64,000 nucleotides of DNA from Desulfuribacillus stibiiarsenatis (lineage in GTDB: Bacteria; Bacillota; Bacilli; Desulfuribacillales; Desulfuribacillaceae), in NCBI RefSeq assembly GCF_001742305.1, contig NZ_MJAT01000033.1:1-64000 (forward strand), in the 5' to 3' direction. The notes under the pieces were generated by a model. It did no database searches and was not told the DNA's origin. It saw only the letters and a list, made by a program, of their open reading frames with translations. The position numbers were made by a program, and so were the translations under genes. Of this stretch, positions 273-26,861 are shown piece after piece. Every line of letters begins with the position of its first letter. Positions within the stretch are counted from its first letter, which is position 1.

Positions 273-737
273 TTACTTCTTCATAGAAGATTCTGTAGGA
301 ACTATTACACCTTCAGGTTTTAACACGTTCGGCACTGTAATTGACCCACTTTTGTCAAATTCAAATACAATGGTGAAAACATCAGGTAATTGTCGGAAGG
401 ATGGCATATTAAACATCATAATATGGTATCCACCCTTCTTAAACTCTATTTCTCCGTTCGGTATATTCACATGTTCAATCTGATACATACTCCCGTCTTT
501 GACATTGTGCAATTCAAATGTTGCTTCAGGGAACTCAGGAATCATAAAACCTGTAAAAGTGTCTTCGCCACCATTATTCCTTATTGTAAAATAGCCAGAG
601 TAAACTCCTTCGCCTTTCATTGAAGAAGGGGCAATCGAAATATTCTCGATTACTATATCAGGCGCCTTGTCACTACTACATCCAGTAGTAAAGATAAACA
701 TTGATAATAGTACCGCCATTATTAAAATTTTTCTCAC
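273..737 (-). CDS. PCu(A)C-like copper-binding lipoprotein
   Basis: Small exported lipoprotein of about 154 residues. The GTG start at 737 follows a GGGAGGG ribosome binding site; upstream in-frame starts have none. The N-terminus is a signal peptide ending in the lipobox FTTGC. The body reads as the PCu(A)C (DUF461) fold: an ELHN segment, a Met-rich middle and GYHIMMFN near the C-terminus, giving His and Met copper ligands. Family members carry Cu(I) outside the membrane and help load copper into cytochrome oxidase and similar sites. It is last in an operon with an ABC transporter, 17 bases after the ATPase. Copper delivery is inferred; the family call is fairly firm. Confidence 0.75.
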   Translation of the reverse strand: MRKILIMAVLLSMFIFTTGCSSDKAPDIVIENISIAPSSMKGEGVYSGYFTIRNNGGEDTFTGFMIPEFPEATFELHNVKDGSMYQIEHVNIPNGEIEFKKGGYHIMMFNMPSFRQLPDVFTIVFEFDKSGSITVPNVLKPEGVIVPTESSMKK

Positions 738-754
738 TAAATACCCTCCCATTG

Positions 755-1438
755 TTACAAACATGCTATTTCCCGTACATCGCCATCAATCAAGTGAAAT
801 CTACGGTTCGCTGCCTCTGCCCATTGTGGGTGATGAGTGACCATAACAACAGCCTTCCCGTTCTTCACCTGATCCTTCAATAACTTCATCACTTCTTCTG
901 CCCAATGTATGTCTAAATCGTTCGTTGGTTCATCTGCAATCACCAAAGATACGTCATTCACAAGTGCTCTTGCAACAGCTACTCGACGTCGTTGTCCAAC
1001 ACTCAGTTGATGCGGTAGAAAACGTAAACGTTCTCCTAACCCAAGCTTTCCTAAAAGCTCTATCGCCCTTTCACGTTGCGCCTTACTAGAAGATTTCCTC
1101 GTCTGTAAATATGTAGAGAAGAGTACGTTCTCAAGCACCGTTAATGTAGGAAATACGTTCGCCTCTTGAAATATAAACCCTACTTGGTTCGCTCTGATGG
1201 TTGTTAACTGAGCGTCCGTTAGGTTCGATATATCTTTTCCTTGAATCGATACAGAACCAGTTGTCGGGCGAAGCAATCCACCCATCACATATAAAAGTGT
1301 GCTTTTCCCTGTGCCAGATGGGCCTTCAATGGTAACGAATTCCCCAGCCTTAATGTCCAACGACACTTCCTTTATCGGACACACTTTTTCCCCAGCATCA
1401 TATTCTTTCGTCACTTTCTGCAATCGACATATATCCAC
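755..1438 (-). CDS. ABC transporter ATPase, LolD/MacB type
   Basis: ATP-binding subunit of about 227 residues. The Walker A reads GPSGTGKST near residue 40, the signature LSVGQRRRVAVARA near 140 and the Walker B LVIADEPTNDLD near 165. The start is GTG at 1438, preceded by GGGGTGA. Size and motifs match LolD/MacB-class ATPases, which drive type VII (mechanotransmission) ABC systems acting on extracytoplasmic substrates rather than channel transport. It lies 12 bases after the FtsX-type permease, its obvious partner, and 17 bases before the PCu(A)C lipoprotein. The substrate is unknown; handling of a metal or lipoprotein outside the membrane fits the neighbours. Confidence 0.9.
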   Translation of the reverse strand: MDICRLQKVTKEYDAGEKVCPIKEVSLDIKAGEFVTIEGPSGTGKSTLLYVMGGLLRPTTGSVSIQGKDISNLTDAQLTTIRANQVGFIFQEANVFPTLTVLENVLFSTYLQTRKSSSKAQRERAIELLGKLGLGERLRFLPHQLSVGQRRRVAVARALVNDVSLVIADEPTNDLDIHWAEEVMKLLKDQVKNGKAVVMVTHHPQWAEAANRRFHLIDGDVREIACL

Positions 1439-1450
1439 CGGTTCACCCCA

Positions 1451-2647
1451 TTATAAATTGCTTCGCGAAATCGCTTCTTGTGGATCTAATCTTGAGCTGC
1501 TCCAAGCAGGGTAAAAAGCTGCGAACAATCCTAGTAAGATAGCAACCCCTAGACTTACACTGCCTGTCAAAAACACATCTGTAGGCGTGATGTTCCAAGG
1601 CGGCATCACAAGAATTCCTTTTAGCCATTGCATGACATGAACAGAGCCATAACTACCTACAAGAATTCCTATACACCATCCGACAAGTACTGTAAACATT
1701 ACTTCAATCATGACCATTAGAAAGGCATCAAGTCTTCTGCCACCTAGTGCACGCATGACCCCAATTTCCCTTCTCCGCTCACGCGCTAATGATAAGAATC
1801 TACCGAATAAAGCTAAGGCAGAAGTAATGGCAAGGATAATCCACAGCCATAATAGAATTTGGTTCACTGCTTGCATTTGTCCCTTCATTTCCCCTATGAT
1901 TTCGCCCGAAGTAATTGCTTGTACCGGTAGTCCCATTTGGTTAATCTGGCGAGCAATAAGTTGAGGGGGATACCCTTCATCTGCTTGAATCATGATGACG
2001 GATATCAGGTCTTCTGGATTTTGTGACAGCCAATACCCTTGTAGCCCTGGGCTTTCTGCAGCCAATTCGCGAGCAACAGCAATATCCATAAAGATTGTCT
2101 CATCCATACCCGTTCCTGTTTGTTTCAATTGACCTGCAACTACGAATATTTCATCAAGAATGATTGCATGATCTCCGAAAAATGGCTTCACGATTCCACC
2201 AATTAAGATTTGCTCTGGGTCTAATGGAATCGAGATTTCCGTTTCTAACCATGGCGCAATGAGAAAGTCTGTGCTTGCATCATATCCAATTAATCTCTTT
2301 GCCTCTTTTAAATTACAACAACTCTCATCTAAAGACTGTGTGAAAAATTGCGGAGTAGCCTTAGCGATACCTTCAATTTCTAGTATTCTATCAAAATACT
2401 GTGATGGCATATACGCATTCACAGGTTCTGCAGTAAACAAGGTTTGTTGTGCGTTCACACCTACAACTTGAGGCAATACCACAACGTCTGCACCTAATCT
2501 CTCTGAGGATAACTGTATACTCCCTTGTAACATTGCTAGAATCATATGAGCAATCACAAACGTAGCAATCGCAATTGCTACTAAGAGAATCGTTAACAGC
2601 GATTGATGCATACGCCTTGTAACATTTCGCCAAGCCAAATGGAACAT
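1451..2647 (-). CDS. ABC transporter permease, FtsX/MacB family
   Basis: A 398-residue membrane protein with the MacB/LolE layout: one N-terminal helix (about residues 17-40), a large extracytoplasmic domain (about 45-265), then three helices in the C-terminal FtsX domain with the usual LARERRREIGVMRALG coupling segment. It starts 12 bases after the beta-propeller lipoprotein stop and ends 12 bases before the ATPase, so the genes are co-transcribed and the pair makes one transporter. The cargo is not evident. The extracytoplasmic domain holds paired Cys (ESCCNLKE), possibly metal- or disulfide-related. Confidence 0.88.
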   Translation of the reverse strand: MFHLAWRNVTRRMHQSLLTILLVAIAIATFVIAHMILAMLQGSIQLSSERLGADVVVLPQVVGVNAQQTLFTAEPVNAYMPSQYFDRILEIEGIAKATPQFFTQSLDESCCNLKEAKRLIGYDASTDFLIAPWLETEISIPLDPEQILIGGIVKPFFGDHAIILDEIFVVAGQLKQTGTGMDETIFMDIAVARELAAESPGLQGYWLSQNPEDLISVIMIQADEGYPPQLIARQINQMGLPVQAITSGEIIGEMKGQMQAVNQILLWLWIILAITSALALFGRFLSLARERRREIGVMRALGGRRLDAFLMVMIEVMFTVLVGWCIGILVGSYGSVHVMQWLKGILVMPPWNITPTDVFLTGSVSLGVAILLGLFAAFYPAWSSSRLDPQEAISRSNL

Positions 2648-2659
2648 GTAGACACTTCC

Positions 2660-3706
2660 TTACTTCTTAAAATAAGCTAATCCTACTGGACCACCTGTAA
2701 TTGCAATATTACTAATTTCGTTCTGTTTCTTGACATCAAAAATCTGTATAGAATTAGAATCCATATTAGTAACTGCTACCTTCGTAAATTCCCCTACAGT
2801 TGTGAGAGCAAAAGGATATTCACCCGTAGCAAAACGCGCTACTTCCGTATTATCCTTTTTCACATCTATCGCTACTATTTCCTTTGTTTCATGAAGAAGG
2901 ATATAAAGATAAGGATCTGCTAATTCAAGTGCTGCCGGCATATCTGATGTTGGAATTACACCAAGCTTTTCTTTGTTGGTTAAATCAAAGATAAAAACTT
3001 CATCGGCATCATCTTGCACTCCATGCCCACCACTATAGATTCTATCTGATTGAATATCGTAAGCGAGCCCTGAACTCTTAGGTACAGTTTCAAAAGTGTC
3101 TAGTATTTGTAGTGTGGTTAAGTCTATTATTACTAGAGTTCCTGCATCATGATTTGTTACTGCTAGCCTATTATTTGGTAGAATTTCTAAATTATAAGGG
3201 GACTTCCCTGTAACGATCTCGCCAATTACTTCTCTAGAAGTTAAATCTATAATAGAAACAGTATCTGCCCCTGAGTTGCTCACATACGCTCTATTCTGTG
3301 CTTCTTCTGTAATAATTAAAGCTGGGATACGTCCCACGGTCACTTTATGTAAAATATCAAATGTATCTAAGTCCAAAAACCATACTTCATTACTTAAAGC
3401 ACAAGCAATTAACAATTGGTTTCTATCCTTATCGACTGCAATCCCATATGGCTTCTTCCCAACTCTTTGTTCAGACGTAACTTTCCCTGTTGCAAGGTCA
3501 ATAGCAACTACCTTATCCTCGTTCATAGCCGTGACATAAAGTCGTTCATTATAAGTAATCGGCGTTGGATTTAACGGAGCCCACTCTTCTTGTTGCGGAT
3601 TGTTGGTAGTGCTTTTAGCAGTATCCTTAGTACCGCAAGCAGTTCCAATGAAAAGCAGAGAAATAACTAACATTACAATCAATAGTTTTTTTCTAATATC
3701 GCACAT
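2660..3706 (-). CDS. YVTN-type beta-propeller lipoprotein
   Basis: First gene of the minus-strand operon, 348 residues. A signal peptide ends in the lipobox IGTAC, followed by a Thr/Asn-rich linker and about seven repeats of the YVTN/YncE style, for example AYVSNSGADTVSIIDL and LAVTNHDAGTLVIIDL. These form an extracytoplasmic seven-bladed propeller tethered to the membrane. Propellers of this family bind partners or metals; some sit beside copper and denitrification genes. Co-transcription with an FtsX-type ABC transporter and a PCu(A)C lipoprotein suggests a role in assembling or monitoring an exported metalloprotein, which is inference. Confidence 0.8.
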   Translation of the reverse strand: MCDIRKKLLIVMLVISLLFIGTACGTKDTAKSTTNNPQQEEWAPLNPTPITYNERLYVTAMNEDKVVAIDLATGKVTSEQRVGKKPYGIAVDKDRNQLLIACALSNEVWFLDLDTFDILHKVTVGRIPALIITEEAQNRAYVSNSGADTVSIIDLTSREVIGEIVTGKSPYNLEILPNNRLAVTNHDAGTLVIIDLTTLQILDTFETVPKSSGLAYDIQSDRIYSGGHGVQDDADEVFIFDLTNKEKLGVIPTSDMPAALELADPYLYILLHETKEIVAIDVKKDNTEVARFATGEYPFALTTVGEFTKVAVTNMDSNSIQIFDVKKQNEISNIAITGGPVGLAYFKK

Positions 3707-6513: not shown

Positions 6514-7095
6514 ATGAGTCACGAACTACCGCAACTTCCGTATGACAAGAACGCTTTAGAGCCACACATTTCTTCCGAAACATTAGAATTTCATCACGGA
6601 AAGCACCATCAGGCATATGTTACGAATTTAAACAACTTAATTCCTGGAACTGAGTTTGAGAATATGCCCTTAGATGAAATCGTTAAGAAGTCTTCAGGTG
6701 GGGTTTTCAACAATGCCGCTCAAGTCTGGAATCATACCTTCTTCTGGAACTGCATGAGTCCGAACGGTGGCGGAGAGCCTACTGGAGAAATAGCTGATGC
6801 TATCAATGCAACTTTCGGTTCTTTCGATAGTTTCAAAGAGCAATTTACCAAGACAGCTGTTGGCACGTTTGGCTCTGGCTGGGCATGGTTAGTAAAGAAC
6901 TCCGACGGTTCCCTAGCTCTAGTTAGTACCAGCAATGCTCAAACACCTTTAACTACAGATCAAAAACCACTTTTGACTTGTGATGTCTGGGAGCATGCGT
7001 ACTATATCGATTATCGCAATGCACGCCCTAAATTTGTGGAGGCGTTCTGGAATTTAGTGAATTGGGATTTTGTCGCGAAGAACTTCGCTGAATAA
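6514..7095 (+). CDS. sodB: Superoxide dismutase, Fe type
   Basis: Cytoplasmic superoxide dismutase of 193 residues, converting superoxide to oxygen and hydrogen peroxide. All four metal ligands are visible: His27 in EFHHGKHH, the His in VWNHTFFW (about 74), and the Asp and His of DVWEHAYY (about 157 and 161). The stretch [16 protein letters not shown] and the GGGEPTG loop are those of the Escherichia coli SodB-like iron group rather than the manganese SODs usual in Bacillota. The start follows AAAGGGG. The gene stands alone on the plus strand with its own promoter and terminator. Iron rather than manganese is inferred from the motif. Confidence 0.95.
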
Positions 7096-15045: not shown

Positions 15046-15423
15046 TTATTTACTATGGTTTGCTTGTAAAAATTCTGTAACTGCTGCTTTTTCTTCATCC
15101 GTTAACAAACCTTGTTTGTATCCAATCATACGATCAATTACTGATGGCCATTGATCTGCCGCTTGAGGTGTTAATGTTTTGTCCATCAAATGACAACCTA
15201 TGCATTTCGCTTCTATTAGAACTTGCGCATCTAATGTAGCAGGTTCTGGCGCTGGTGCAGGTTGGTCTGCTGGTGCTTGTGCTGGCGGCTCTGGTGCAGG
15301 AGCTGGATCAGCAGCAGGTGCAGGGGCTGGGGCTGGTGTTGAATCGCTACTACTACACCCTACAACAGTGACTAACATCACACTTAGCAGCAAACAAATG
15401 AGTCCTATTTTTTTTGCGTTCAT
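15046..15423 (-). CDS. Monoheme cytochrome c lipoprotein
   Basis: Lipoprotein of 125 residues. The lipobox VVGCSSS is at about residue 22, followed by an Ala/Pro-rich flexible tether (about 28-62), then a compact domain with one heme c site CIGCH (about 75) and a distal Met candidate in DRMIGYKQG. The C-terminal domain closely matches the last 60 residues of the lipoprotein at 18142-18864 (AKCxxCH...QWPxVIDRMxGY...LLTxEE). It is divergent from the three-gene locus at 15670-18864 across a 246-base shared upstream region, so it probably shuttles electrons for that complex at the outer membrane face. The start follows AGGAGAG. Confidence 0.8.
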   Translation of the reverse strand: MNAKKIGLICLLLSVMLVTVVGCSSSDSTPAPAPAPAADPAPAPEPPAQAPADQPAPAPEPATLDAQVLIEAKCIGCHLMDKTLTPQAADQWPSVIDRMIGYKQGLLTDEEKAAVTEFLQANHSK

Positions 15424-15669
15424 TGTAACATCTCTCCTATCAATTTATGAATGTTCTTAGACAAGCCTAAGATATGTGAAATTATATTCTGCAATTGTAT
15501 ATCTGTCACTCTTTTATGTGCAAGTCGAGAATATTGTGATATTTGTATTTGATTCTATTTAGCAATTATTACAAATGTATTACCGCGTATTTTCCCTATA
15601 TGCTTCCGTTTCCTTTTATAGTAAAGTAGTTTTAAATATGAAGAAATTGTAAAGACGAGGAGGCTGTCA

Positions 15670-17037
15670 ATGGAATTCCCTGTGTTTGAACTTCAATATT
15701 TTGGTTCTAATACACTTATTGCTGTAATTGCAATAATTCACGTTATTATCTCCCATGGCTGTGCAGTAGGTGGCTCAATATACTTGGCCTCAACTGAATA
15801 CTTAGCTTATAAGAGAAAAGATGAACAGCTTGACCAATTCGCGCGGAAGTTCTTAAAGGTACTGTTTATTATTACTACAAGTGTCGGTGCTCTAACAGGT
15901 GTGGGTATATGGTTTGCCGTTTCTCTAGGTCAACCAATGGCAATCGCATCATTACTACGAGTATTCTTCTGGGCTTGGTTTGCTGAATGGATCGTATTTA
16001 TGACTGAAATTGCATTACTAGTCATTTACTTTTTTACGTGGAAAACAATTTACGAAAAGGGTAAGGCGCTTCACGTTAAGATTGGAATTGCGTATGCCGT
16101 AGCATCATGGTTTACGATGGTTATTATTACTGGAGTTCTAGCTGCCATGCTAACTCCTGGGGAATGGCTAGTGAGTCGTTCGTTCTGGGATGCATTTATG
16201 AATCCTACTTGGATTCCGTCATTACTTTTTAGAACTTCTGTTGCTGTTTCTTTAATTTCAGGATTTGCGCTACTATACGCGAGTTTAACTATTAAAGATG
16301 CACAATTTAAACAGAAAATCATTTCCTATACTGGAAAATGGCTGCTCGTATCTACTTTAACGATTCCACCAACAGGCATGTTTTATCTGTCTCGCGTTCC
16401 GGAAAGGGCAAAGGATTTACTAGTTTGGGCATCTGGATTCATTAATGAGAACACGTTTGTTTTATTAAACACAGTCGGTGCGCTAGTAATTTTCTTAATT
16501 GCCTTATGGGCAATTTTTCAAGGGAAGCGATTTCCTGCGATTCTTTCTTTAGTTGTGTTAGTATTATCTGTTTTTTACATTGGTGAAATGGAAATGGTCC
16601 GGGAGAAAATTCGTAAGCCTTACATGATTTATGGGTATATGTATGCTAATGGCGTGACGATAGATGATATTGACCATTTAAATACTGTCGGTGTTTTATC
16701 TTCGAGTAAGTGGTCTACTGTAAAAGAGGTCACTGCAACGAATCAACTACAAGCTGGACGTGAAGTGTTTAAGCTACAATGTAGTTCTTGTCACACAATC
16801 AATGGTTGGAATTCACGAAGAGATATCGTACAAATCACCAATGGTTGGCCTGAAGGAGCAATCAACGCCTATATTGCAAATCTGGATTCGTTCCACTATT
16901 TCATGCCTCCATTTTTCGGATTACCTGAAGAACGGGAAGCGTTAAGTAAGTGGATCTACAACTTCCAAACGAATTCATCGAATAGTTCACTCAATACATC
17001 TTTTGTTGGAGAAAGGAAGGTGGCAGTCAATGAATAA
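15670..17037 (+). CDS. CydA-like membrane subunit with C-terminal cytochrome c domain
   Basis: Membrane protein of 455 residues with about nine helices, then a heme c domain (CSSCH near 378). Helices 1-5 follow CydA order: HVIISHG (heme ligand region), ALTGVGIWF, FFWAWFAEWIVFMTE (acidic residues of the oxygen-reducing helix) and the segment before FRTSVAV. The heme b558 His found in CydA (VHTVAS) is replaced here by Arg (FRTSVA). There is no long Q-loop. EMVREKIRKPY resembles the ExxRxPW-like end of CydA. I infer a bd-superfamily quinol oxidoreductase passing electrons to c hemes instead of, or as well as, oxygen. First of a three-gene operon; start after GAGGAGG. Confidence 0.72.
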   Translation: MEFPVFELQYFGSNTLIAVIAIIHVIISHGCAVGGSIYLASTEYLAYKRKDEQLDQFARKFLKVLFIITTSVGALTGVGIWFAVSLGQPMAIASLLRVFFWAWFAEWIVFMTEIALLVIYFFTWKTIYEKGKALHVKIGIAYAVASWFTMVIITGVLAAMLTPGEWLVSRSFWDAFMNPTWIPSLLFRTSVAVSLISGFALLYASLTIKDAQFKQKIISYTGKWLLVSTLTIPPTGMFYLSRVPERAKDLLVWASGFINENTFVLLNTVGALVIFLIALWAIFQGKRFPAILSLVVLVLSVFYIGEMEMVREKIRKPYMIYGYMYANGVTIDDIDHLNTVGVLSSSKWSTVKEVTATNQLQAGREVFKLQCSSCHTINGWNSRRDIVQITNGWPEGAINAYIANLDSFHYFMPPFFGLPEEREALSKWIYNFQTNSSNSSLNTSFVGERKVAVNE

Positions 17038-18142
17038 TTTACCGATTCCTACTGAATTAGACCTGCCAATTCCTGGATCTGTTCCTTTTTTTACAGTATT
17101 GCTCGTAATTAGTTTTATACTTCATATTATTTTTGTGAATGTGATGATTGGTGGTACGGTCGTTGCGCTCGTTACAGAGTATCTCGGTATTAAACGTAAT
17201 GATGTTCGGTATGACCGATTAGCCCAGTCTATGATAACTGTAACCTCTGTGAATAAGAGTATCGCAGTCGTACTTGGAGTAGCGCCATTATTATTAATTA
17301 GCGTACTGTATACGAGGTTTATCTATTCTTCCACAGTGCTCATCGGCAAAGCTTGGATTTCAGTAGTACCTCTAGTAATCATCGCTTTCCTGTTCTTGTA
17401 TGCTTACAAATTTTCTTGGGAATCGATGAGAAACTCCAAAGGGATGCATATGCTACTAGGACTTGGTGGTGTAATCCCATTACTGTTTATCCCGTTAATT
17501 TTTTCTACCAACATGGTGTTAATGCTTGTACCTGACCGTTGGTTAAGTACCACTAGTTTCTGGCAAGCAGCAATGCACAGTAGCGTGCTACCAAGATATT
17601 TCCATGTTTTGTTTGCCTCTTTTGCACTCATTGGTATTATGATTGTTTTGATGGGCTATTGGCAAAATCTTAAAGCAACAACTGCTGAGGAGCAATCCTA
17701 TCGCCAATGGACTATGCAATATGGAATATACTGGGCACTTTATGCAATCCTTGGGCAGCTATTTGTTGGTCCAGTCCTTTTATTCTTACAACCCTCGGGA
17801 GTAAGAGCGTCGTTTTTGGGCGGATCAAATACATGGATGATTATAATTGCAGTAATCCTAGTGTGTGGAATTTTAACCACATTATATTTAATGGGTAAAT
17901 CTCTTAACTCTAAAGCGCTCAATACACAATCGATGACAAAAACTGTTAGTGAAACTGCTGCTACTGTAGAACAGGGACTTACTTCTAGGAATAATGACAG
18001 GAAAACATGGGGTATCATCATTGCGTTGTTATGTGTGCTGCTTTTAATGGGTACAATCCGTCATCAAGTAAGAGAAATACACTTAGCACCTTATCAAAAC
18101 CCGTCCTTCGAACAAAACTTGATAAAGGAGGTCTCAAAGTAA
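17030..18142 (+). CDS. Second CydA-like (CydA') membrane subunit
   Basis: Membrane protein of 370 residues with about nine helices. It starts at 17030 inside the end of the previous gene (8-base overlap, GGAAGGTGG upstream). Its first helices repeat the pattern of its partner (FILHIIFVNVMIGG...VTEYLGIKR against IIHVIISHGCAVGG...STEYLAYKR), so the two are paralogues. It keeps a His where the partner has Arg (LPRYFHVLFAS). It has no CydB features and no CxxCH. The natural reading is a CydA' partner forming a heterodimer with the upstream subunit, each supplying some heme ligands. Heme content is inferred. Confidence 0.65.
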   Translation: MNNLPIPTELDLPIPGSVPFFTVLLVISFILHIIFVNVMIGGTVVALVTEYLGIKRNDVRYDRLAQSMITVTSVNKSIAVVLGVAPLLLISVLYTRFIYSSTVLIGKAWISVVPLVIIAFLFLYAYKFSWESMRNSKGMHMLLGLGGVIPLLFIPLIFSTNMVLMLVPDRWLSTTSFWQAAMHSSVLPRYFHVLFASFALIGIMIVLMGYWQNLKATTAEEQSYRQWTMQYGIYWALYAILGQLFVGPVLLFLQPSGVRASFLGGSNTWMIIIAVILVCGILTTLYLMGKSLNSKALNTQSMTKTVSETAATVEQGLTSRNNDRKTWGIIIALLCVLLLMGTIRHQVREIHLAPYQNPSFEQNLIKEVSK

Positions 18143-18864
18143 TGAGAAAACTCCTAAAAAAGCTTTTTCATAGAAAAAGTTTACTAGTTTTGGCAGCTTT
18201 ATCTGTGTTGTTGATTCTAGCAGGCTGTGGCGCTCAAACTACTGATACTAAGAAAGTTCATGATGGGCCACCTAAGATCCCTCATACTACAAATGCAATA
18301 GATAATTGCCTAGTTTGCCATGAGACTGGTCTTATGGGTAAAGCTCCTATAACGCCTCACCCAGAACGTCCAAATTGCCAAATGTGTCATGTTTCTTCTC
18401 AGGAAATGGCTAAAGTACCAGTTCAAGAATCACCTAGTACTCAACCTACAGAACCAATACAACCTCCTGTTGAGGAACCAAAACAACCTGTAGAAGAGCC
18501 AAAACAAGCTGAGCAAGCAACTCCGACTGCACAAGAAAAGCCTGTTGAGCAACAAAAGCCTGTTGAGCAACAAAAGCCTGTCGAGCAACAAAAGCCTGAC
18601 GAGCAACAAAAGCCTACAGAACCAAAATCAACCGAACAACCTAAACCTGCTGAACAACCTAAACCAGTGGTAACGATTGATTTTAATAGTTTGTTAGAAG
18701 CTAAATGCTCTATGTGTCATACGAAAGAACAAGCAGTTACTCCACAACCGACACAGCAATGGCCAACCGTTATCGACCGTATGTTGGGCTACAATGCTAG
18801 TTTACTAACAAGCGAAGAAAGAACTGCATTGATTCAATATTTACAAAATACGTATAGCAAATAA
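18142..18864 (+). CDS. Triheme cytochrome c lipoprotein, NapB-like plus monoheme domain
   Basis: Lipoprotein of 240 residues whose start codon overlaps the upstream stop (TAATG), with AAAGGAGG before it. The lipobox LAGCGAQ is near residue 27. A short diheme segment (CLVCH and CQMCH, with KIPHTT and RPNCQMCHVSS) resembles NapB, the diheme subunit of periplasmic nitrate reductase. Next is a Pro/Gln/Glu/Lys linker with repeated KPVEQQ units, then a C-terminal domain with CSMCH nearly identical in layout to the lipoprotein at 15046-15423. It likely takes electrons from the membrane subunits. No nitrate reductase catalytic gene is present. Confidence 0.78.
   Translation: MRKLLKKLFHRKSLLVLAALSVLLILAGCGAQTTDTKKVHDGPPKIPHTTNAIDNCLVCHETGLMGKAPITPHPERPNCQMCHVSSQEMAKVPVQESPSTQPTEPIQPPVEEPKQPVEEPKQAEQATPTAQEKPVEQQKPVEQQKPVEQQKPDEQQKPTEPKSTEQPKPAEQPKPVVTIDFNSLLEAKCSMCHTKEQAVTPQPTQQWPTVIDRMLGYNASLLTSEERTALIQYLQNTYSK
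18541..18612 (+). repeat. Four 18-bp tandem repeats in the cytochrome linker
   Basis: Four in-frame copies of an 18-base unit (cctgttgagcaacaaaag) encode the PVEQQK hexamer. The first two are identical and the last two differ by one or two bases. They lengthen the linker between the NapB-like and monoheme domains of the lipoprotein and can expand or contract without frameshift. Confidence 0.85.
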
Positions 18865-22849: not shown

Positions 22850-23230
22850 TTATTGTACAATTAATGTTCCCCTGATTTTTGCATGTAACGGACTGCATAT
22901 TATATTACATACATAACCATATTCTCCAGGTCCTTCAGCAATAAATTCTATAACTTTAATCTCTCCTGGCTTGATTCTTCCGGAATCAACACCTAATTCC
23001 CCGATAGAAAACCCATGAGATACATCTTCACTAATCAACCGCAATTTCACAAGTTGACCTTCCTGAACAACGATTCTACTAGGAGAGAATCCACCTTTTT
23101 CGTGAGCTCGCAAATAAACATCAATTACATCTGGATCTTTCGTAGCATTATCCCCTAAGATTGCTCCCACAGGAACAACCAGTATGATAAAAACCGCAAA
23201 GGCCCCAGCTAAAAATTCCTTCATACGCAT
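22850..23230 (-). CDS. CuA-like cupredoxin, membrane-anchored
   Basis: Protein of about 126 residues: one N-terminal helix or signal anchor (MKEFLAGAFAVFIILVVPVG), then a cupredoxin fold. His in VSHGFSI and the loop CNIICSPLHAKI follow the CuA spacing C-x3-C-x3-H-x2-M, except that the final Met is Ile. It may bind CuA with an altered axial ligand or a mononuclear copper. The start at 23230 has GGGAGGG before it. It is 24 bases after the CuA-polyferredoxin gene, whose own cupredoxin domain it resembles (VTHGLFI against VSHGFSI), suggesting duplication and a joint electron-transfer role. Confidence 0.8.
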   Translation of the reverse strand: MRMKEFLAGAFAVFIILVVPVGAILGDNATKDPDVIDVYLRAHEKGGFSPSRIVVQEGQLVKLRLISEDVSHGFSIGELGVDSGRIKPGEIKVIEFIAEGPGEYGYVCNIICSPLHAKIRGTLIVQ

Positions 23231-23254
23231 GTATATCCCTCCCATCAAGGTTTC

Positions 23255-25222
23255 TTAGATATATAACCATAAGAATAAAGCTGTAATTGCCATTAAAAAC
23301 ACTGTAATTGGTAATAGCAATCTAAACTTCTGGCCTTTATCTAATGGATACTTTGCAATGATTTTTGCTCCAATCCAATTGGAATAAATAAGACCAAAGA
23401 ACAAGATGAAAGCTTGAATATATGGATATACTCCAGTTCCTACTGGTTTCCACTCTAATCCTTTTGTTCCAAACAAGTTCCAACCCCACCCAAATGGATC
23501 AGATATTACATGTAAAATATAGACAATATTGATAAACAGGAAGGATACGCTAAACGCCATCCAGCATGCTAATCCCATCGGCACTAATACATACGACAAA
23601 TCAATGAATAGTTTCTTAAATGACTCACTAGGATTCGCTGATTTTTCTGCTGTAGCCGCTGCTTCTGCTTGCGCACTACTTGGAACAAACATACTCTTTG
23701 TCGATTTTAACATGTCTACAATTGGCGTGAAAATATGCCCTATTTTAGAGAAGTCTTTAAATGCTAGCCCTTTACCAATCCAAACAAATAACGCGAACAG
23801 AAGTGGTACGATCAATAAGTTTAAGACTAGGAATCCACCTGCGTAAATGAAGAACCCAGGCATACTCATGTTCGCCCAAGTCTTGAAGATTCCCCATGGA
23901 CCTTGGAAGATTACCGAATATGCTAATGCGCAAGTCAACATAATGAAAGCCTTGTAAGCTTCATCTAACTTCTTGCCTTTTTCCACTAATAAGTCTGCAC
24001 CAAAGCTTTGCCAGTTTAGGGCAATATTCTTCTGTGAACAACTCTTGAAACATTCTAAACAAAGTCCACAGTAAGCGTTTCTTTCCATCGTCCAAGGAGT
24101 TTCCATCCATGGACAACCATATGCCTTTTCATTTCCAACAATACACTCTTTATCCTTGTGAGCACGGCATGTTCCTTTGTCACGGACACGGACCCCAAGT
24201 GGTGCAAGTAATGAGTATAATCCGATAAAGCCCCCTACTGGGCACATATAACGGCAGAAAATACGTTTTCCGTAAATCACTGTAGTAATAATTGCTAACA
24301 CTATAAAGAAACTTAAAACAATAGAAGTAGCCAATGGACGCGTAAGAATGATTCCACTAAATAAAGCAACTAATAAAAATGACCAGTTTTGTAGCCAGAT
24401 ATTCTTAAGTCCCTTCGGCCACCCTTTAATTGCTACAGATGGAGCCTTTTCACAGCCTTTATCTATAAATGCTCTTCTGTCAATCCATTCCCCAGGAGCA
24501 GGTATAGGACAAATCGTACACCATAATCGTCCCCCGATTGGTAGTAGTATGATGATCAGTAGTGCCCACCATAAAATCCAAACAAATATCAATGAGAAAT
24601 TCGCGTTCCCAACGTTAGTACCTGCAAATCCTGCAAAGATTACTATCGCAAAAAAGAAAGTATTTACGATAAATATTAGATATATAATCCATCGTTGATT
24701 TAAGATATATTCTAACCACGGATATTTTTTGTTTAAATCAATGCCTTCTTTTGGTGCTTGGACGTTTTTAACAAGCTCATCACTTCTTCTATAAACATAG
24801 AATAGACTTGTCATTCCAATGCCAATTGTTAAAAATAAAGCGATTGGGAACGTGGGATTCGGATCTACCACTAAAGTTCCAATCATAAAAGGATGCATAG
24901 GCCCACACACAATCGGACAACGGAACGTAAAGTTTCCCGTCTTGTCAGCAACAAATTCAATAATGCCAACTTCTGGATCTTTTGGTTGATCGTATGCTTT
25001 TATATCATATCCATCAATAAATAGCCCGTGTGTTACATCATCAGCAATCAATGTGATTTTCACACGATCACCTTGTTTGACATTAATTTTATTTGGTACA
25101 AATTCATATTGTTTCGCATGAACAGTAATTTTAACAACTTGATCTGCACTTGCTTGCGGTAGAGGAATAATGAACTGTACTACAAGCAAAATCAGAAATA
25201 AATATGCAATTTTACGTTTCAT
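23255..25222 (-). CDS. CuA cupredoxin fused to NosR/NapH-type polyferredoxin
   Basis: Membrane protein of 655 residues. A signal peptide is followed by a cupredoxin domain (about 27-120) with a complete CuA motif, CPIVCGPMHPFM, and an upstream His in VTHGLFI. Then come about ten helices with cytoplasmic Fe-S motifs like those of NosR, NapH and CcoG: CTICPIPAPGEW (about 235), CRYMCPVGG (about 325) and CGLCLECFKSC (about 390), plus extra Cys at CRAHKDKEC. This layout could pass electrons across the membrane between Fe-S clusters and an outside copper centre. Whether it serves N2O reduction, the peroxidase upstream or something else is unknown; no nosZ is in the window. Confidence 0.75.
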   Translation of the reverse strand: MKRKIAYLFLILLVVQFIIPLPQASADQVVKITVHAKQYEFVPNKINVKQGDRVKITLIADDVTHGLFIDGYDIKAYDQPKDPEVGIIEFVADKTGNFTFRCPIVCGPMHPFMIGTLVVDPNPTFPIALFLTIGIGMTSLFYVYRRSDELVKNVQAPKEGIDLNKKYPWLEYILNQRWIIYLIFIVNTFFFAIVIFAGFAGTNVGNANFSLIFVWILWWALLIIILLPIGGRLWCTICPIPAPGEWIDRRAFIDKGCEKAPSVAIKGWPKGLKNIWLQNWSFLLVALFSGIILTRPLATSIVLSFFIVLAIITTVIYGKRIFCRYMCPVGGFIGLYSLLAPLGVRVRDKGTCRAHKDKECIVGNEKAYGCPWMETPWTMERNAYCGLCLECFKSCSQKNIALNWQSFGADLLVEKGKKLDEAYKAFIMLTCALAYSVIFQGPWGIFKTWANMSMPGFFIYAGGFLVLNLLIVPLLFALFVWIGKGLAFKDFSKIGHIFTPIVDMLKSTKSMFVPSSAQAEAAATAEKSANPSESFKKLFIDLSYVLVPMGLACWMAFSVSFLFINIVYILHVISDPFGWGWNLFGTKGLEWKPVGTGVYPYIQAFILFFGLIYSNWIGAKIIAKYPLDKGQKFRLLLPITVFLMAITALFLWLYI

Positions 25223-25247
25223 TCGTTCACCCGCCTTTTTTTTTAAA

Positions 25248-25275
25248 AAAAGCCACCTCTAAGCAAGGTGGCTTT
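25248..25275 (-). terminator. Terminator after the diheme peroxidase gene
   Basis: AAAAGCCACCT and AGGTGGCTTTT form an 11-bp stem; the minus strand continues with a run of T. It lies 18 bases past the peroxidase stop and just before the polyferredoxin start, so readthrough into the downstream pair would be limited. Confidence 0.75.
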
Positions 25276-25292
25276 TCTATTATTTAGTAAAA

Positions 25293-26330
25293 TTAAGGAA
25301 GTGTTGGCTCATCAACGATTGGAAGTGTGCCATTTAATGACTTCAAGAATGCTACTAAGTTTGCTTTTTCAGCATCACTTAAGTTAAGTGGTTTGATTAG
25401 AACACTCTTGTTCGTGTGGTTGTCTCCACCTTTATTGAAGTATTCTACAACGTCCTCTAATGTAGCAACTGTACCATTATGCATGTAAGGAGCTGTATGA
25501 CCAATTCCTCTTAATGCAGGTGTCTTGTACTTACCAGAATCTTCTGGGTTCTTAGTGAAGTTTGCTCTTCCTAAATTGTCATTCTCAATTCCAACATTGT
25601 GGAAGTTGTTATCTGTTAAGCTAGCGCCATTATGGCATTGGATACAGTTCGCTTTACCAACGAACAACTTCATACCTTCTTTTGCTTCCGCAGATAGTGC
25701 TGATTCATCACCAGCTAACCACTTGTCGAACTCAGAGTCATTGATTACGATTGTTCTTTCAAATGCAGCGATAGCTTTCGCTACACCATCTGTAGTAATT
25801 TCACTATTGAATACTTTTTGGAATCTTTCAACATACTCAGGTACTGCATTTAACTTTACTAATAACTCATCTAAAGATAAGTTCATTTCACCTTTATCTT
25901 GAATAGGACCTAATGCTTGCTCTTCTAAAGTCTTCATTCTTCCATCCCAGAACTGTAAGCTGTAATGTCCAGAGTTAATGATTGATGGTGAGTTACGCAC
26001 ACCTACGTTACCTTGGAACCCTAAGAAAGTCTTACGGTTGTCGCTCCAACCTTTTGCAGGCTCGTGACAGCTAGCACAGCTAATTGTGTCATCACCAGAT
26101 AATCTCTTGTCGAAGTATAACATCTTTCCTAATTCGATTTTCTCGTCAGTCATTGGGTTGTCTTCAGGAATCGGCATTGCTCCTAATGGCGCAAATACCG
26201 TTCTAGGATCAACTGCAGGTGCTTCAGGCGCAGCAGCAGGTGTTGATGTAGTTGTGCCGCCACAAGCAGTTAGCGTCGCAATGCTAAACACTGCAACTAA
26301 AGCAAGTAATAATAAAGTCCGTTTTTTCAT
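25293..26330 (-). CDS. Diheme cytochrome c peroxidase / MauG-family lipoprotein
   Basis: Lipoprotein of 345 residues with lipobox LTACGG near residue 23 and an Ala/Pro linker. The CCP/MauG catalytic region follows: first heme CASCH (about 85, in DTISCASCHEPAKGWSD), second heme CIQCH (about 232), and a Met-containing motif TAPYMHNGT near 283. Family members reduce hydrogen peroxide with electrons from small cytochromes or cupredoxins, or oxidise protein side chains. It lies between a blue-copper-like lipoprotein upstream and the CuA polyferredoxin downstream, which may supply electrons. As a lipoprotein it works at the outer face of the cytoplasmic membrane. Confidence 0.9.
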   Translation of the reverse strand: MKKRTLLLLALVAVFSIATLTACGGTTTSTPAAAPEAPAVDPRTVFAPLGAMPIPEDNPMTDEKIELGKMLYFDKRLSGDDTISCASCHEPAKGWSDNRKTFLGFQGNVGVRNSPSIINSGHYSLQFWDGRMKTLEEQALGPIQDKGEMNLSLDELLVKLNAVPEYVERFQKVFNSEITTDGVAKAIAAFERTIVINDSEFDKWLAGDESALSAEAKEGMKLFVGKANCIQCHNGASLTDNNFHNVGIENDNLGRANFTKNPEDSGKYKTPALRGIGHTAPYMHNGTVATLEDVVEYFNKGGDNHTNKSVLIKPLNLSDAEKANLVAFLKSLNGTLPIVDEPTLP

Positions 26331-26369
26331 GTTTTGCTTCTCCCCTTATAATTTTTATAAATAAATTAG

Positions 26370-26412
26370 TTGAGCCAAGCTCTAGACACTTTTTGCCATG
26401 AAATTGGCTCAA
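26370..26412 (-). terminator. Hairpin between cupredoxin and peroxidase genes
   Basis: TTGAGCCAA and TTGGCTCAA form a perfect 9-bp stem with a 25-base loop. No strong T-run follows on the minus strand, so it is a weak terminator, a processing site or an operator rather than a clear end of transcript. Confidence 0.35.
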
Positions 26413-26447
26413 ATAATTACTTACCAAAAACACTTCCGTACTAAAAA

Positions 26448-26861
26448 TTATTCTTCAACAACAAATGTCATTTTGATCCAAGGGTGAATTGTGCATAATG
26501 GCTCGTATGTACCTGGCTTATTTGGAACTTCCCAACCACTTCTTACCGTTTGACCACCATCAACAAGAATCTCTGGTAAGCCAATCTCTTTACTTAAAAA
26601 GTTATGTTCTCCGTCTGGATCTGTATTTACAATTTCAAATACAACCTTTTCCCCAGCTTTTAACGTAATAGAGTTCGGTACAATTGTTTGTGGTGTAAAG
26701 TCTAAATTGATAATGCGTGCATCTTCATATCCTGCTGGAATCGGTGGAATTTCATTGGTTACTGGTGCTGGAGTTGGGCTACTAGCCGCGTCATTCCCCC
26801 CGCAAGCTACTAAAGATAGTGATAATACCGTTACTAATGCAATACCTAATAATTTTTTCAT
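26448..26861 (-). CDS. Cupredoxin-domain lipoprotein
   Basis: Lipoprotein of 137 residues with lipobox LVACGG near residue 20. The cupredoxin domain shows a His in DGEHNFLS and the C-terminal loop CTIHPWIKM, i.e. Cys, His and Met ligands of a mononuclear (type 1-like) copper site. It is probably an electron carrier on the outside of the membrane. It precedes the diheme peroxidase gene on the same strand by 117 bases and is a likely donor for it. The start follows AGGAGG. The 323 bases upstream are AT-rich and hold promoter-like sequence and the speD terminator, but no ORF. Confidence 0.85.
   Translation of the reverse strand: MKKLLGIALVTVLSLSLVACGGNDAASSPTPAPVTNEIPPIPAGYEDARIINLDFTPQTIVPNSITLKAGEKVVFEIVNTDPDGEHNFLSKEIGLPEILVDGGQTVRSGWEVPNKPGTYEPLCTIHPWIKMTFVVEE

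Follow-up and report, generated by a model that had tools for sequence, protein, structure and literature searches.

The locus analysed here raises the question of what two adjacent CydA-type membrane genes do in a bacterium when no CydB gene accompanies them and the first of the two ends in a heme c domain. It lies in the window, i.e., the 64,000-nucleotide stretch of a Desulfuribacillus stibiiarsenatis contig that was analysed, and comprises four genes. Gene A (15670–17037, + strand, 455 aa) encodes a CydA-type membrane subunit with a C-terminal heme c domain, as recognized by HHalign, fold and Pfam, and gene B (17030–18142, + strand, 370 aa) a CydA' paralogue. Gene 3 (18142–18864, + strand, 240 aa) encodes a lipoprotein with three CxxCH motifs and is a proposed electron donor, and gene 4 (15046–15423, − strand, 125 aa) a divergently oriented monoheme c-type lipoprotein. 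Genes A and B overlap by 8 nt and the start of gene 3 overlaps the stop of gene B by 1 nt (TAATG), and this head-to-tail arrangement makes it very likely that the three form a single operon; no terminator-like site was found 3' of gene 3. In the intergenic region that separates gene 4 from the oppositely oriented gene A (15424–15669, no strand assigned), a scan returned four sigma-70-like sites against 1.7 expected, and one 11/12 site lies on the − strand at 15509–15481. CRP/FNR-like sites were not more frequent than expected by chance, though one single-mismatch match (15367–15382) falls within the 5' part of gene 4.

Both membrane proteins display the CydA fold and the sequence homology that define the cytochrome bd superfamily. 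Gene B matches the Pfam family Cyt_bd_oxida_I (PF01654) over the cut-off at 5e-11; gene A stays below the Pfam CydA cut-off, although Pfam sees its heme c domain. In a sequence search of solved structures, Geobacillus CydA (5doq_A) was the top match of both (1e-6 for gene A, 7e-6 for gene B), and HHalign against 24 canonical CydAs yielded E values of 9e-17 for gene A (307 columns) and 3e-14 for gene B, with the two genes aligning to each other at 2e-20. The AlphaFold models (pLDDT 71 for gene A, with its heme c domain at low confidence, and 79 for gene B) superpose on CydA chains 7oy2_C and 5doq_A at Z 26.1 for gene A (5doq_A: 310 residues, 3.6 Å) and on chain 7ose_A at Z 27.2 for gene B (315 residues, 3.7 Å). 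The kinship of both genes with CydA is not a matter of chance. An identity as alternative complex III or NrfD-type proteins (ActC/ActF, PsrC) was considered and rejected, as alternative complex III chains scored Z 16–19, below the 23–27 of CydA chains. A preliminary description of this DNA had read the genes as two CydA relatives side by side, open to a profile search for bd-superfamily membership, and had noted the lack of CydB at the locus; all of this holds. None of gene B, gene 3 and gene 4 is CydB-like, and the host's cydB adjoins its canonical cydA on another contig (C36), where two cydDC-type ABC-exporter genes come next. The partner gene, which is CydB in canonical CydAB (qOR), is here a CydA paralogue, and this combination of a catalytic subunit with a CydA paralogue and no CydB is shared with the archaeal CydAA' of Caldivirga. 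The archaeal enzyme oxidizes quinol and contains b hemes only, whereas in genes A and B the quinol loop is absent and gene A carries its heme c domain.

Residues known from the oxygen-reducing site of CydA are kept in gene A with little variation across 21 homologues from Bacillota, Pseudomonadota, Planctomycetota, Omnitrophota, Verrucomicrobiota and Deinococcota. His24 (15739–15741, + strand) aligns with the CydA His that serves as active-site heme ligand (H19), and Glu106 and Glu113 (15985–16008, + strand) are the equivalents of E99 and E107; the motif E308-xx-R311-E312-xx-R315-K-P317 (16591–16620, + strand) is the counterpart of CydA [TA]ExGRQPW, aligned with TELGRQPW, and its E312 coincides with the active-site Glu ligand E445. 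H24, E106, E308, R311, E312, R315 and P317 were each found in 21/21 sequences, and position 113 is Glu in 20 and D in one. The residues by which an O2-reducing CydA is recognized (H19, E99, E107 and E445 in E. coli numbering) thus all have a counterpart in gene A. The alignment with the host's own canonical CydA likewise shows the O2-site set in gene A: the His of helix I, both Glu residues of helix III and the Glu within the GRQPW motif. The C-terminal domain (16726–16965, + strand), correctly seen as heme c-binding in the preliminary description, contains CSSCH at residues 371–375 and the axial Met412 in an MP motif; C371, C374, H375 and M412 are present in all 21 homologues, and the heme c family PF13442 matches gene A at 1.5e-4 and the gene A homologue L003 over the cut-off. 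As the domain directly follows the GRQPW-like motif, it would be expected at the outer face and near the hemes of the active site.

What separates gene A from canonical CydAB, with which it shares the active-site His and Glu residues and the fold (Z 26), is, besides the missing CydB, the loss of the quinol module. The Q-loop with its quinol-binding residues, a mark of qOR, spans ~80 residues in canonical CydA and is skipped in the alignment with gene A, which has ~25 residues there; at its place the models of both genes show short interhelix loops only. Neither b558 ligand of a qOR catalytic subunit is retained, since H186 corresponds to F187 in an ungapped alignment and M393 to Thr. The b558 His was earlier thought to be Arg in the first subunit; it is indeed missing, but the aligned residue is Phe and the invariant Arg is its neighbor R188. 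With the O2-site residues and heme c ligands retained in gene A and the Q-loop gone, genes A and B probably constitute a heterodimeric cytochrome c:O2 reductase within the bd superfamily, in which the heme c domain replaces the quinol/b558 input module.

The preliminary description had proposed the reverse, namely that quinol is oxidized and electrons are exported, which fits poorly with a subunit lacking Q-loop and b558 ligands, keeping its O2 site and bearing heme c where electrons are expected to enter. Stated in full, such a quinol:cytochrome c oxidoreductase would pass electrons from menaquinol via heme b of gene B to heme c and on to the lipoproteins, in place of the missing bc complex. 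The adjoining lipoprotein genes are in its favor, as is the alternative complex III-like role once floated for bd-like proteins of Nitrospina (PMC3578206), and the pair could bind quinol at a non-canonical site. However, the loss of the Q-loop in gene A and the short loops of the gene B model weigh against this route, which also leaves the invariance of the O2-site Glu residues without reason, and we regard it as quite unlikely. Gene B bears on it in two ways. Across 20 gene B sequences, the helix-I H32 and R189 are invariant (20/20 each) and H192, a b558-type His in an RYxH motif, occurs in 17; that this His is kept in the second subunit only, as stated earlier, would suit a heme b en route from quinol. 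In the three divergent gene B lineages L019, L025 and L026, by contrast, H192 is lost, and a heme b in gene B is therefore not universal.

Gene B has no Glu equivalents of CydA E99 and E107, and this loss of active-site residues, along with the rarity of the pair in Bacillota (6/398 genomes with gene A, the window genome included), could indicate a degenerate, non-catalytic CydA pair that merely anchors a cytochrome c in the membrane. Such a role is highly improbable, given that the catalytic residues are conserved almost without exception between phyla and that the two genes co-diverge strongly. Gene B lies directly downstream of gene A on the same strand at 21/21 loci, which span six phyla or more. 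The distance matrices of the two genes correlate with r 0.94, a value matched by 0 of 2000 permutations (19 pairs). Relatives were recovered at nine loci in one search and on four plasmids in another, and in 6/60 related genomes besides the window genome; a search of viral contigs yielded none. Due to this occurrence in many unrelated bacteria, the pair represents a known but uncharacterised kind of enzyme rather than a new machine. In Cerasibacillus, the gene B homologue (L005:9344–10393) is split into two open frames by a frameshift, either natural or from assembly. The idea of a conserved four-gene unit had to be abandoned: synteny over relatives, which the preliminary description had itself named as a possible refutation, shows that only genes A and B travel together across the loci examined.

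Fusions and neighboring genes tie the pair to cytochromes of the c type and to aerobic redox regulation. In Omnitrophota (L009, confirmed by PF00034) and Planctomycetota (L007, where the end of the contig truncates it), gene B has a CxxCH domain fused to its C-terminus. Methylosinus has a cytochrome c gene immediately after gene B, and at L019 gene A is preceded by a gene whose diheme cytochrome product includes a SoxA/TsdA cytochrome domain; at most Bacilli loci no cytochrome c gene adjoins the pair, which counts against such a link. At L008, L010, L024 and L025, genes for a kinase and a regulator of RegB/RegA-like type stand next to the pair, with E values of 1e-53 to 1e-67 for the kinases, below equivalog cut-offs, and a different kinase and regulator are found near the pair at L037. 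Together, the cytochrome c fusions and neighbors and the RegB/RegA-type genes speak for the cytochrome c:O2 reductase. At the Methylosinus locus (L025:13208–17305), the pair and the redox regulators adjoin methanobactin biosynthesis genes, downstream of feoB.

The same regulators invite another interpretation, in which the A/B enzyme removes O2, NO or peroxide without energy gain or senses redox state for regulators of the RegB/RegA type. Such regulator genes stand beside the pair at four loci; the window also contains a superoxide dismutase gene at 6514 (recognized by eye) and, at 25293, one for a MauG-type peroxidase, and the host already possesses a canonical cydAB. At the Bacilli loci that were read, however, no RegBA-type genes were seen, the active-site set of gene A is that of a turnover enzyme, and unrelated genes separate the peroxidase cluster from the pair, so that we consider removal or sensing unlikely. 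The cluster in question (22850–26861, − strand) encodes a cupredoxin, a membrane fusion of cupredoxin and 4Fe-4S (Fer4_5) domains, the MauG/CCP di-heme peroxidase and a second cupredoxin, and has the appearance of an independent extracytoplasmic route for electrons to the peroxidase. Elsewhere in the window (273–3706, − strand), a lipoprotein-like protein, an ABC ATPase, an FtsX/MacB-type permease and a YNCE-like beta-propeller lipoprotein are encoded.

For a cytochrome c:O2 reductase formed by genes A and B, genes 3 and 4 are the likely local electron donors; they are not conserved with the pair. Gene 3 consists of a lipobox, two N-terminal CxxCH motifs, a Pro-rich linker and one C-terminal monoheme domain. 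Its earlier designation as a triheme NapB-like lipoprotein stands as to the three CxxCH motifs and the lipobox, but NapB identity has no support from Pfam, which gives no NapB match and weak c7/c3 and SorB-type matches only (SorB-type c 2.4e-5, below cut-off). Gene 4 is a paralogue of the C-terminal domain of gene 3 (44% identity to 18595–18861). Its monoheme domain occurs in one of 60 relatives, the closest relative genome (G001), which has no gene A and in which the monoheme lipoprotein gene lies near an apparent superoxide dismutase gene; a third host copy (L033:9466–10101) is fused behind an extracellular, apparent copper amine oxidase N-terminal-like domain (recognized by eye). This distribution indicates that the domain is not specific to the A/B system. 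The triheme lipoprotein gene is part of the operon at this locus only, among the loci examined.

The respiratory inventory of the host narrows the possible electron routes. Neither COX1 nor a bc-type cytochrome b gave a match in the host genome, which is rated 99.9% complete; consequently, the A/B pair alone stands out as a candidate cytochrome c oxidase. Its cytochrome c would then have to be reduced by a NapC/NrfH-type or other enzyme, a requirement that counts against the reductase. The lack of cytochrome b is also what a quinol-oxidizing A/B pair standing in for the bc complex would explain. Yet the host has NapC/NrfH-type quinol dehydrogenases that could fill this role, two of them over the cut-off, one of which is encoded further along the contig of the window, and a third, weaker match. 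Absence of COX1 and cytochrome b combined with presence of these dehydrogenases supports the cytochrome c:O2 reductase, whose electrons might come from an enzyme of NapC/NrfH type.

The pair is also not without relatives in the literature. The preliminary statement that no described unit with this cytochrome set was known is doubtful, since these proteins seem to belong to OR-C, a family of the cytochrome bd superfamily reportedly classified by Murali, Gennis and Hemp in 2021 (ISME J 15:3534). OR-C is defined by a heme c on a CydA-like subunit without a quinol site, a description that gene A fits with its CxxCH and Met ligands in 21/21 homologues and its missing Q-loop. Since OR-C is the family with an added heme c, we file genes A and B as likely OR-C, and they are probably a member of this published, uncharacterised family. 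Shared features are the CydA-type core without quinol module and the heme c on the CydA-like protein, whereas the triheme lipoprotein gene in the operon sets the present locus apart. The bd superfamily has been split into qOR, OR-C and OR-N (PMC13189123), and the OR-C classification is cited in several papers (PMC10839748, PMC11707229, PMC13189123). For the sister family OR-N, cytochrome c was proposed as donor, O2 as acceptor and CydAA' as an association (PMC10839748). Like genes A and B, OR-N or Nitrospira-type bd-like oxidases are CydA-like and without quinol site. Their Nitrospina representative, however, has 14 helices, three of them in place of the Q-loop (PMC3578206), whereas the gene A model comprises 8 predicted membrane helices plus the heme c domain, which does not correspond to OR-N.

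Overall, the A/B pair appears to be a little-studied variant of the bd-type oxygen reductases that takes electrons from small exported cytochromes instead of quinol. In the proposed mechanism, c-type cytochromes, periplasmic or lipid-anchored and here probably the products of genes 3 and 4, would donate electrons to the heme c at the C-terminus of gene A, from which they would reach a di-heme active site formed by His24, Glu106, Glu113 and Glu312 of gene A. O2 would be reduced at this site, and gene B would serve as a structural partner of CydA' type that may bind one low-spin heme b through His192. In the host, the pair may, as a tentative extension, serve as the only cytochrome c oxidase at the end of a branch from quinol via a multiheme lipoprotein, the dedicated triheme protein bridging from NapC/NrfH-type dehydrogenases; we know of no description of a respiratory branch of this composition. 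The cytochrome c oxidases found in textbooks are, without exception, heme-copper enzymes. A cytochrome c oxidase of the bd superfamily, if true, would represent a second, independent way to oxidize cytochrome c, and the host genome offers a clean test of such an enzyme because no heme-copper oxidase was found there.
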